Made by a program: the position numbers and the translations under genes
Notes under the pieces: model-generated
Databases searched by the model: none
The model's input: the letters and a program-made list of their open reading frames with translations, nothing else
Told to the model about the DNA's origin: nothing
In this document: piece after piece, positions 29,579-33,849 of the stretch
Numbering within the stretch: the first letter of the stretch is position 1
How the letters are laid out: every line of letters begins with the position of its first letter
Source: Planctomycetota bacterium
GTDB lineage: Bacteria; Planctomycetota; MHYJ01; WSZJ01
Assembly: GCA_016190145.1 (NCBI GenBank)
Contig: JACPRD010000214.1
Span: forward strand, 53,306 to 117,305
Reading direction: 5' to 3'
DNA: 64,000 nucleotides

Positions 29579-30217
29579 GTGAGATCTTTCTGGCGGTTCT
29601 TCCTGGCGGCCCTCGTGTGCGGCTGCGCGCCGGACCCCCCGGCTCCGGCGCCGCCTCCACCCGTCGCCTGGCCCCCGGTCAAGGGGCAGCCGTTTCCTGA
29701 TCTCCAACTCGTCGACCAGACGGGCGCCCGCGTGTCCCTGTCCTCCTTCAAGGGGAAGGTCCTCCTCGTCGAGCCGGTCGGAATGAACTGCGCCGGCTGC
29801 CAGGCTTTCTGCGGCGCGCATCGCCCGGGGATCGGGGCGTTCGAAGGCGTGACGCCCCAGCCCGGCCTGATGTCCGTCGACGAGTGCGTCGCCCGGCTCG
29901 GCCAGGGGGCGACCCTCGACGACCCCGATGTCGTGCACGTCCAGCTGCTTCTCTACAGCATGAACATGGACGCGCCGACGCCGGCGGACGCGAAACGATG
30001 GGCGGACCACTTCAAGATGGACAGGAACCGCAACCGGGTGGTTCTCGCCGGGGAACCGTGGCTGGTCAACTCGGCCAGCTACGAAATGATCCCCGGCTTC
30101 TTCCTCGTCGACCGCGCGTTCGTGGTCGTCTCCGACAGTACCGGCCATCACCCGAAGGACGACCTGTATCGCTTCCTGATTCCAGCACTGTCCAAACTGC
30201 TGCACGAGAAGCGCTGA
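29579..30217 (+). CDS. redoxin/SCO-like thioredoxin-fold lipoprotein
   Basis: lipobox-like LVCGC; KGQPFPDLQLVDQTGARVSLSSFKGKVLLVEPVGMNCAGCQAFC. Confidence 0.7.
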   Translation: MRSFWRFFLAALVCGCAPDPPAPAPPPPVAWPPVKGQPFPDLQLVDQTGARVSLSSFKGKVLLVEPVGMNCAGCQAFCGAHRPGIGAFEGVTPQPGLMSVDECVARLGQGATLDDPDVVHVQLLLYSMNMDAPTPADAKRWADHFKMDRNRNRVVLAGEPWLVNSASYEMIPGFFLVDRAFVVVSDSTGHHPKDDLYRFLIPALSKLLHEKR

Positions 30218-30257: not shown

Positions 30258-30287
30258 AGGACCCGGCGGCGAAGCCGGGTCCTGTTT
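30258..30287. terminator. hairpin terminator between convergent genes
   Basis: AGGACCCGGC-ggcgaa-GCCGGGTCCT followed by GTTT. Confidence 0.75.
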
Positions 30288-30305: not shown

Positions 30306-30875
30306 CTAGCTCTTTTCGTCCTCGTGTCCGTCTTCGTCGTGACCTTCGTCGCCCTTGTGTTCCTTCTTGTCCCCGCCCTCGCACTTTCCTTCCTTCTTCT
30401 CCCCGCATCCGCCTTCCTTCGGCTCGCACTTCCCATCCGGACCCGCGCCCAGGCCCGGGCCTTCCTTCTTCTCATCGCCGCCCGGCCGCTTCACGTCGAC
30501 GCCTTCCTTCTTCCCTTCGCCCTTCCGGCGGATTTCGTCGCAGGCGTCCTTGCATTTCCGGCGGGCTTCCTCCTTGCACTTCTTGTGGCCGCCCTTTTCG
30601 CAGTCCTTGTGGCCCTCTTTCTTGCAGCGCTTGTAAGCTTCGCGCTGGCAGTCCGCGTGGCCTTCCTTCTCGCACTTGCGCCTGGCCTCCTCGAACTTCT
30701 TCTTCCACGCCAGTTCCTCAGCCTTGCGGCGGGCGGCTTCCTTCGCGTCGAGCTTCTCACCGCCGTCCGGCCTCTTCTCCTTGACCTCGGGTTTCTTGTC
30801 GCCGCCGTCTTCGGCGCGCGCGGTGGTGGCCAGGGCGAAGGTGGCGCCGATCAGAATTGCGAGCAGGCGTTTCAT
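30306..30875 (-). CDS. secreted Lys/Glu/Cys/His-rich low-complexity protein
   Basis: signal peptide MKRLLAILIGATFALATTARA, then a repetitive CEKEGHADC...CKKEGHKDCEKGGHKKCKEE region. Confidence 0.75.
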   Translation of the reverse strand: MKRLLAILIGATFALATTARAEDGGDKKPEVKEKRPDGGEKLDAKEAARRKAEELAWKKKFEEARRKCEKEGHADCQREAYKRCKKEGHKDCEKGGHKKCKEEARRKCKDACDEIRRKGEGKKEGVDVKRPGGDEKKEGPGLGAGPDGKCEPKEGGCGEKKEGKCEGGDKKEHKGDEGHDEDGHEDEKS

Positions 30876-31021
30876 GCGTATCCTCGCGAAAAGGTTCCTG
30901 TTTCCCCCCGCTCGGAGACTTCCCGTGCGGCTGAGAAAAGGACGGCGGCCGGGGCCTGGCGTTACAGGAGGTTGCCGAAATCCACAAACCTTTATATCAA
31001 AAGCGGTTGGGCCACAACAAA

Positions 31022-31050
31022 CCGGGCCCGGCGGATTCCGCCGGGCCCGG
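31022..31050. terminator. GC-rich hairpin, possible terminator
   Basis: ccgggcccggcggattccgccgggcccgg directly downstream of the 31072..31785 gene. Confidence 0.5.
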
Positions 31051-31071
31051 AAGGTGTCTCTCAGGCGGGAG

Positions 31072-31785
31072 CTAGCTGCCCTTCTTCCCTCCGCCCCTCT
31101 CGTCGTCGTCGTGCCCGTCATCGTCGTGGCCCGGATCGGCACCGTGGCCGCCCTTGCCCTTGCCGGGATTGTCTTCGTCATCGTGATCGTCGTTGTTCCC
31201 GTGGCCGCGGTTGCCTTTCGGCCCCTTGCCCCGGCCGCGGTCGCCGTCCGATCCGCCGTCGCGGTCGCCACCTTCGTGCGCGCCGCCGTCACGGTCGTCG
31301 CCATCGTGGTCGTGCCCGTCGCCGTCATGGTCGCCGCCGCACTTGTGCCCGCCTCTCCGGTCCTTCGGCGGCATCGGGGGCTTCGGCGGACGCGGATGAT
31401 CCCCGCCAGCGCCATCCTTCGGCGGACGCGGATGCTCGCCGTCGCACTTCCCTTCCCCATCCTTGGGCGGCGGGGGCCGACGGCCCGGACCGCACTTGTC
31501 ATCCTTCGGCGGCGGAGGCGGCTTGCGCCCCGGACCGCACTTGTCATCCTTCGGCGGCGGAGGCGGCTTGTGGCCCGGACCGCACTTGTCCTTGTCCTTG
31601 TGCTTCTCCTTGTCATGGTCCCCACCCGCATCCTTCGGCGGAGCCTTCTTGTCACGCGCCCCAGGCGGCGGCTTTCCAGGTCCCTTGCCAGGCTTCCCAC
31701 CGTCCCCGCACGGCTTGCCATCCGCGGAAGCGATTCCCGCGGCGAGCACAGCGGCGGCGACGGCCATTCCCAGGATGCGGCTCAT
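31072..31785 (-). CDS. secreted Pro/Gly/Asp/His-rich repeat protein
   Basis: signal peptide; 15-aa repeats DDKCGPGxKPPPPPK; His/Asp-rich tail. Confidence 0.75.
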   Translation of the reverse strand: MSRILGMAVAAAVLAAGIASADGKPCGDGGKPGKGPGKPPPGARDKKAPPKDAGGDHDKEKHKDKDKCGPGHKPPPPPKDDKCGPGRKPPPPPKDDKCGPGRRPPPPKDGEGKCDGEHPRPPKDGAGGDHPRPPKPPMPPKDRRGGHKCGGDHDGDGHDHDGDDRDGGAHEGGDRDGGSDGDRGRGKGPKGNRGHGNNDDHDDEDNPGKGKGGHGADPGHDDDGHDDDERGGGKKGS

Positions 31786-31904: not shown

Positions 31905-33169
31905 TCATTCCAGCGTTTTCAGCAGACGGGCCGCTTCCTCCGCCTCCGGCGTCCCGGGATGCCCGTCGATCACCTTCTGAAGCCACGTCCGCGCGTTCTC
32001 AGGCTTCTTGTTCTCGATCAGCATCCGCGCCCGCTCGATCCAGCCGCGGGCCTGCCGCCGCGCCTCCGCCTTCTTGACGATGTCCGGCCACTCCGCACTT
32101 CCCGTCAGCTCGTCGATCCGCGCCTGCGCCTTCCGCGCGCATTCCGTCCCCGCATGCCGCGCCACCACCTCGCGATATACCTCCACCGCCTCAGGCATGT
32201 CCCGTGCCTCCGTCTCCTGCGCCTTCTCGAACAGCGGCGTCGCCTTCGCCTCCAGCCGCCGCGCCTCCGCCTCCTTCTCCGCCTTCTCCACGTTCGTGTC
32301 GAGAATCAGCCCGAACGTCGCCACGAAGTAGATCCGCCGGATGTGGAATCCGCCCTCGTTCGCCTCGTATTTCTGCACGCCGACGCCGAGGAGGTTCACG
32401 TACTTATTGATGAAGGGCGCCCGGTGCCCCGGCTGCCGAGCCAGGCGTCCACGGCGGCCTGGGGGTTGTTGTCGTACGCGAGATCCTCGCCCACGAAAAT
32501 CACCCCGTCCGGCCGCGCCTCATACTTCCGGTCAGGCAGCCCCCACGTCACGTTCTTCCACCCATACTTCACCTTCGCCCGCGCCGCCATGTCCCCCGCT
32601 TTCGGCGACAGGTGCGCGAAGTACCGGTTCTCGATCATGTCCGCACAGTGGTCGCGGCCGATCGCCGCCAGCCGCTCCTCCCACTGCAGTTCCGACAGGC
32701 CACGCCCTTTGCGGAACGCGTTGATCCGGTCGAAGACGTCCCGCTCGATCTCCCCCGCCGGCCGCCGGTCCCACTCGTAGTTCGGCTCGGGCTCCACTTC
32801 CTTCGGCACGCCCGCATAAATGTTGAAGATCGCCCCTACCGCCGGCCCCAGGTCCCCCTGCACCATGAACTCCACGTCGTACCGGCCTTTCCCCTTGTCG
32901 AACACCAGCCGCTGCGCGAACTTCCCGCCCGTGATCTCCGCGTCGTGCAGCTCCTTGGTCGTGCCGTCGGGAAGCGTGATCGCGCACCAGCCGTACTTCC
33001 ACTTTCCCTGCGGCACGCCGCGGATGGTGAGCGCTGCGCCTTCCTCGATTTCGCGCGGGAAGTCCTCGATGCGGACGCGGTCTTTGTAGTACGTCTCTCC
33101 TGCCGGCGCGGGAAGCGCGGCGAGCGCGAGGAGGAAAAGGACGTTACAGGTCGCGATCTTTTTTGACAT
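31905..33169 (-). pseudogene. CAP/SCP-domain protein gene with a single-base frameshift
   Basis: frame 1 ends ...AVDAWLGSRGTGRPSSIST*. Restoring one C near 32431 gives AVDAWLGSPGHRAPFINKYVNLLGVGVQKYEANEGGFHIRRIYFVATFG, which continues into ORF 31905..32399. Confidence 0.85.
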
Positions 33170-33849
33170 CAGGCCTTTCGTGACAGGGCGTGGCGGAAGA
33201 TGGTCCACAGGATCTTATACCCAGCACGTACCGTGCCGGAAACGGTCCCCGTGATTTTCGAGACGCCGACGCGCCGGCGGTAGCTCACGGGGACCTCGCA
33301 GACGCGCAGCCCGTGCCGGAGCGCCCGGATCTGCATCTCCACCGTCCACCCGAAATTCCGGTCGCGCATGCCGAGTTTTTTCAGCGATTCGAACCGGATC
33401 GCGCGGAACGGGCCCAGGTCCGTGTAGCGGTGCCCGTAAATCAGCCTCATCAGGAAGCACGCGAGCGCGTTTCCGAACCGCGCCTGCGGCAGGAGCGCAC
33501 CTGCCTCGCGCTCCCCCAGCGCGCGCGACCCGATCACCATGTCCGCCCGCCCGGCCTCGATCGGCTCCACCAGCCGCGGCAGCTCGTCGGGATGGTCGCT
33601 GAAATCCGCGTCCACGAAAACGACCACCTCGGGCTCACGAAGCGCCGCAATCCCCGCCAGGCACGCGCTTCCGTACCCGCGCCGCGGCTCCGACACAACC
33701 CGCGCGCCGCCCGCGACCGCGACCTCCGCCGTGCGATCCTTCGACCCGTTGTCCACGACCACGACGTCGTCGACTTTGGGAAGCGCCGCGAGCACGAGCG
33801 GCAGGCTTTTCTCCTCGTTCAGCGCAGGGATCACGACCGCGACCCTCAT
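33169..33849 (-). CDS. family 2 glycosyltransferase
   Basis: VVIPALNEEKSLPLVLAALPKVDDVVVVDNGSKDRTAEVA...VDADFSDHPDELPRL. Confidence 0.9.
   Translation of the reverse strand: MRVAVVIPALNEEKSLPLVLAALPKVDDVVVVDNGSKDRTAEVAVAGGARVVSEPRRGYGSACLAGIAALREPEVVVFVDADFSDHPDELPRLVEPIEAGRADMVIGSRALGEREAGALLPQARFGNALACFLMRLIYGHRYTDLGPFRAIRFESLKKLGMRDRNFGWTVEMQIRALRHGLRVCEVPVSYRRRVGVSKITGTVSGTVRAGYKILWTIFRHALSRKA

Follow-up and report, generated by a model that had tools for sequence, protein, structure and literature searches.

Exported low-complexity proteins in a Planctomycetota genus and a candidate selenoprotein among them

Animal selenoprotein P is an extracellular protein with His-rich, disordered stretches and Cys/Sec content. 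In bacteria, 25 families of selenoproteins with Cys homologues have been described (PMC1794560), and the bSECIS constraints comprise a hairpin 16-37 nt downstream, G in the first two loop positions and an MFE <= -7.5 (PMC13188914). A text search of the review that gives these constraints had no hits for Planctomycetes, "secreted" or "disordered", and searching the literature for planctomycete selenoproteins turned up no direct precedent.

Here we describe two genes in a window of 64,000 nucleotides (the whole stretch of DNA analysed) from the MAG of an uncultured planctomycete (G000; 5.35 Mb in 217 contigs, 85% complete). Our overall reading, to which we give a little under an even chance, is that they encode an exported pair: gene 2 would be a cation-held tether presenting a thiol, or a selenol where UGA is read as selenocysteine (Sec), and gene 1, with its Cys octads, would be its partner. 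The strongest features, both missed by the first-pass annotation of this locus, are the C-terminal module of gene 2 and the exchange of TGA for Cys in two congeners.

The two genes and their setting

The translations of both minus-strand ORFs (Table 1) match those quoted in the first-pass annotation, and the secreted, low-complexity, Cys/His/Asp-rich character that it gave them was borne out. The signal peptides that it had called can be read on both proteins as AxA-type starts with an n-region and a hydrophobic core (TARA/ED, ASA/DG). Homologues were identified in congeners for gene 1 (E 6e-23 and 4e-8) and gene 2 (E 4e-18, 1e-8 and 4e-4), and the frames are therefore supported as coding. As far as searched, both genes are restricted to one Planctomycetota genus.

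Table 1. Features of the locus, by position in the window
Feature	Position	Strand	Description
Hairpin 3' of gene 1	30258..30283	-	terminator-like; 10 pairs
Gene 1	30306..30875	-	189-aa exported Lys/Glu-rich protein; 10 Cys, 6 His; start 30875; predicted helical Cys/His octad array at residues 68-115; acidic/His C-terminus predicted disordered
Cys octad array of gene 1	30531..30674	-	C-x7-C-x7-C-x7-C-x7-C-x7-C-x3-C; octads CEKEGHAD, CQREAYKR, CKKEGHKD, CEKGGHKK, CKEEARRK, CKDACDEI
Hairpin 3' of gene 2	31022..31050	-	terminator-like; 13 pairs, all G-C
Gene 2	31072..31785	-	237-aa exported Gly/Pro/Asp/Lys-rich protein, predicted disordered
C-terminal module of gene 2	31096..31209	-	NRGHGNNDDHDDEDNPGKGKGGHGADPGHDDDGHDDDE; recurs in unrelated exported proteins
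45-bp (15-aa) repeat of gene 2	31481..31590	-	KCGPG[HR]KPPPPPKDD

The earlier statement that no family is recognised also holds: neither gene matched Pfam, NCBIfam or PHROGs. Weak matches of gene 1 to PtrA, TolA, Asr and FliH (E 0.02-0.2) fall far under the cut-offs of those families and were rejected as evidence of kinship; they are apparently matches to the signal peptide or to charge composition. A sequence search of the PDB with both genes and a Foldseek search with the AF2 model of gene 1 gave no match, and no paralogues of either gene were found in their own genome. A paralogous relation between the two was rejected, as blastp gave no match and the C-terminal tail alone is common to them. 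No RNA families were found at the locus.

The GC hairpins reported downstream of each gene were both found, and in G001 terminator-like hairpins likewise follow both genes (L003, L005). Because each gene has its own downstream hairpin, here and in G001, the two look like separate transcription units; the spacing between them is 196 bp. Terminator-like hairpin sites overall number 5 in 4 kb against 3.6 expected, which is not significant.

The description of the genes as a tandem pair is accurate for the adjacency in this species, but it does not extend to G001 and G002, where they lie on different contigs and well inside them. We rejected a conserved tandem operon, since genes 1 and 2 are apart in congeners. 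The order nuoN, gene 1, CAP/TPR is found in four species (G000, G001, G002 and G004), to which the window adds a redoxin-like gene and gene 2 around gene 1. Gene 2 has a different genomic neighbourhood in each of the four species.

The added neighbour is a redoxin/TlpA-like protein with CAGC (29579-30217, plus strand); only in this species does it stand between nuoN and gene 1, and G003 has a weak relative. It was rejected as a component of the system as it does not adjoin gene 1 in congeners. The CAP-domain ORF (32396-33208) and the TPR ORF (31905-32399, minus strand) are a single ORF of about 424 aa in G001, G002 and G004. In the window the reading frame seems to shift near 32420-32430, which may be genuine or come from misassembly.

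In G001, genes 1 and 2 have the same C-terminal tail, DDGMxDLK*, which occurs nowhere else in that genome. Among 25 genomes, DDxMxDLK* was found only on these two proteins and on gene 1 of G002; gene 2 of G002 ends in DDLK. We regard genes 1 and 2 as linked despite their separate positions because this tail is common to both in G001. It suggests a shared partner, an anchoring, sorting or processing step, or gene conversion.

The tether and C-terminal module of gene 2

AF2 models gene 2 as disordered except for the signal helix, and we describe the protein as a predicted disordered Gly/Pro/Lys/Asp tether with a thiol site and a constrained C-terminal module. Outside the signal peptide and the module, congeners agree mainly in composition. 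The tether contains a tandem repeat (45 bp, 2.4 copies, 95% matches). Three 15-aa DDKCGPGxKPPPPPK units had been annotated here; the tandem repeat is present, but the units are uneven, the first beginning KDKCGPG and the third having four prolines, not five. Neither the DDKCGPG repeats nor the GGDHDGDG run is conserved outside this species, and the repeats are a recent 45-bp duplication. The counterpart of the Cys repeat region is CCC in G001; in G002 and G004 it is the in-frame TGA.

The module is about 38 aa long, with the conserved form GHGNNxDHDDEDNPGxGxGxHGAxPGxDDDGxDDDE. Its dN/dS is well below 1 in nearly all comparisons with measurable dS (dN 0.08 and dS 1.9 for G002-G004). Outside the genus, the gene 2 query matched through its C-terminal end only: in G082 it matched pseudopilin-like proteins, in G006 a very large protein with Cys/His repeats, and in G010 the C-terminus of one protein. 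A degenerate DNA pattern for the module core was found in 11 of the 392 Planctomycetota genomes (26 copies in G180 alone), and the reversed pattern had no matches. Hosts include pseudopilin/prepilin-like, PilX-like and lipoprotein-like proteins; in other phyla they are prepilin-like (a Chlamydiae MAG), YD-repeat (Lindowbacteria) and RCC1-like (Gammaproteobacteria) proteins, and the module also occurs in proteins on IMG/VR contigs. Most hosts with a visible N-terminus carry an export signal, as read from their sequences.

Searches of Pfam and NCBIfam with module members gave a single match at chance level (E 2.1, UBE2O SH3-A), a sequence search of the PDB gave none, and no direct precedent for the module was found in the literature. 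There was also no tblastn match to plasmids (to E = 10) or phages (to E = 0.01), perhaps due to low-complexity masking. Because of the repeated D/N/H pattern, we read the module as a site that probably binds a divalent cation, with Ca2+ favored. The GHGNNxDxxDxxNPG module provides a handle on a so far unnamed component of numerous exported proteins, both in Planctomycetota and outside this phylum.

The protein of G006 (G006:C93; L007/L012) is striking for its Cys/His repeats: the motifs GHCGSHCGHxHxCC / CxHxCxHxHxGHC recur dozens of times, and there are also FG-GAP-like stretches and two GHGNN modules. G180 (L064-L066) has GHGN[DN]DDxxDxDNPG, often in tandem, at the C-termini of exported proteins; copies also occur at contig ends, where the assembly breaks inside repeats.

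In-frame TGA codons in two congeners

The window carries the Cys form of gene 2, with no TGA. The TGA forms are known from two species only, G002 and G004, each with one in-frame TGA in a gene whose product is otherwise free of Cys and has fewer His. The two share the context GGC-TGA-CCC-G-x-x-ATG-GAx-GGC-GGC-GAC, which occurs nowhere else among 392 genomes. As the aligner receives C for U, we repeated the alignment with this residue set as X. The G002 residue still aligns with the Cys of G000 and G001; the X of G004 falls a few columns off that of G002 in default alignments, and its homology rests on the string XP[GD]M[ED]GGD.

We identified tRNA-Sec with a UCA anticodon in G000, G001, G002, G004 and G005, and SelB above the cut-off in G001-G006; none above the cut-off was found in the window's own incomplete MAG. 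SelD with one in-frame TGA is present in all seven genomes searched, including that of the window. G004 has two different SelD (G004:C109 and G004:C136; L095, L100), with an in-frame TGA in each, and G001 has two tRNA-Sec loci.

Both gene 2 UGAs fit the bSECIS model with a spacing of 18 nt. The model is permissive and the test weak, as 7-23% of codons pass it by chance in the genes examined. The loops are GACAA and GACACGCC, both beginning GACA, in hairpins of -9.7 and -12.0 kcal/mol. The strict bSECIS test fails at 5 of 8 SelD sites. Synonymous resampling of the gene 2 hairpins was not significant (255/1000 and 66/1000; p about 0.26 and 0.07).

It is rather unlikely that the TGA of G002 and G004 is an ordinary stop, followed by a separate coupled ORF that starts at the ATG six bases on, or by an ancestral pseudogene. 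Such a reading draws on TGA-CCC-GRY-ATG in both species, with ATG two codons downstream of the TGA. UGA followed by C can also leak. However, strong purifying selection on the module 3' of the TGA excludes a pseudogene. A separate ORF would have no signal peptide, yet module hosts are generally exported, and re-initiation at the ATG would leave the module cytoplasmic. There is no clear Shine-Dalgarno sequence at the right distance. Also at odds with a stop are the otherwise Cys-free proteins, the Cys at the aligned site in G000 and G001, and the Sec machinery and Sec-SelD of these genomes.

We consider decoding of the UGA as selenocysteine in G002 and G004 to have a somewhat better than even chance. 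With about the same leaning, gene 2 would found an unusual bacterial selenoprotein family: exported, predicted to be disordered and without a catalytic domain, its Sec forms Cys-free, with a single Sec on a tether that ends in an undescribed but widely shared Asp/Asn/His module. If UGA is Sec, selenium would be placed in an exported, apparently unfolded protein. A chemical role (metal or metalloid capture, oxidant quenching or matrix cross-linking) would then be favored over classic enzyme catalysis, and there would be selenoproteins that searches based on folded oxidoreductases may miss.

Gene 1, possible joint roles and known systems

Gene 1 has Cys at every eighth residue, six in succession, plus a CxxxC (spacing 7,7,7,7,7,3), and none of 100,000 shuffles matched the length of this run. 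The array is conserved in three of the four species, with seven Cys in G001 and G002 arranged as C7C7C4C7C7C3C. Gene 1 of G004 retains the signal peptide and the Lys/Glu-rich helical repeats; it has lost the array. Because it has one Cys only, the array is a non-obligatory part of the family. In the AF2 model, made from a three-sequence alignment, residues 39-122 are helical (pLDDT mostly 70-80), with breaks at the Gly-His pairs, and the tail is disordered. The gene evolves fast (dN 0.47 and dS 0.77 for G000-G001).

Possibly, if improbably, both proteins are fast-evolving envelope filler, that is, short exported disordered polyelectrolytes that act as spacers or charge buffers. The module would be a retention tag and not a metal site; Cys, His and repeats would drift, and export and the module alone would matter. 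The mainly compositional conservation of gene 2 beyond its signal peptide and module, its changing neighborhood in every species seen, and the fast evolution of gene 1 with the loss of its array in G004 are all consistent with filler. Left unexplained are the seven gene 1 Cys in register in three species, and the Cys/TGA site present in all four gene 2 proteins, including one each in the two that are Cys-free. Much less probable is a metallothionein-like sequestration pair, along the lines of the metal sequestration raised in the first-pass annotation, in which gene 1 would bind Zn, Cu or Hg through Cys/His and gene 2 would bind metal through His/Asp: the octad spacing of Cys/His in gene 1 is highly non-random, gene 2 has His/Asp runs and a Sec site would also suit soft-metal chemistry, but the Cys array is missing in G004, gene 2 of G002 and G004 lacks Cys and is poorer in His, no metal transporter or regulator immediately adjoins the genes, and neither gene matches a solved structure by sequence.

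For the exported, cation-held pair that we prefer, export (read from the sequence), predicted disorder, the shared module and the exchange of Cys and TGA are shown, and we infer the binding, the chemistry and the partnership of genes 1 and 2. The module would bind Ca2+ or another divalent ion and so hold the gene 2 protein in a cell-surface matrix. The tether would present a reactive thiol outside the cytoplasm, or a selenol in the UGA species, where UGA would be read through the species' own SelB/tRNA-Sec machinery. This group may capture soft metals or metalloids, or quench oxidants. Gene 1 would be the tether's helical Cys/His partner at the same place, with octads whose Cys would make disulfides or a metal site. 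Metal binding by the two proteins is plausible, as is an envelope or matrix role.

Gene 1 resembles metallothioneins and other Cys-rich metal-binding peptides in its high content of Cys and His. Metallothioneins have CxC/CxxC clusters, whereas gene 1 has Cys at every eighth residue of a predicted helix, is exported and does not conserve the array in G004. No metallothionein sequence (Pfam, NCBIfam, PDB) and, from the spacing, no CxC/CxxC clusters were found in it. The module is similar to TSP3 and EF-hand-like Ca2+ loops (DxDxDG) in its Asp-dense runs (DDDGxDDDE, DHDDEDN), which are sometimes in tandem, and in its exported hosts. Its spacing, however, differs from the canonical one, and it matches no profile of a known Ca2+-binding repeat. 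PHROG 23810, a family of unknown function, aligns at its C-terminal positions 118-155 with the module region of an IMG/VR contig protein (E 9e-5), although the N-terminal protein differs.

By analogy only, gene 2 is comparable to animal selenoprotein P, being likewise His-rich and predicted to be extracellular and disordered, with Cys or putative Sec. Selenoprotein P has multiple Sec and a thioredoxin-like domain, and gene 2 has no sequence relation to it. The bacterial selenoproteins in PMC1794560 and PMC13188914 are mostly folded oxidoreductases, whereas gene 2 is predicted to be disordered, is exported and has no catalytic fold. Gene 2 of G002 and G004 is like them in a TGA that faces Cys, in G004 by way of the string after it, and in a SECIS-like downstream hairpin that fits the permissive bSECIS constraints, and the two genomes likewise encode tRNA-Sec, SelB and a Sec-SelD.
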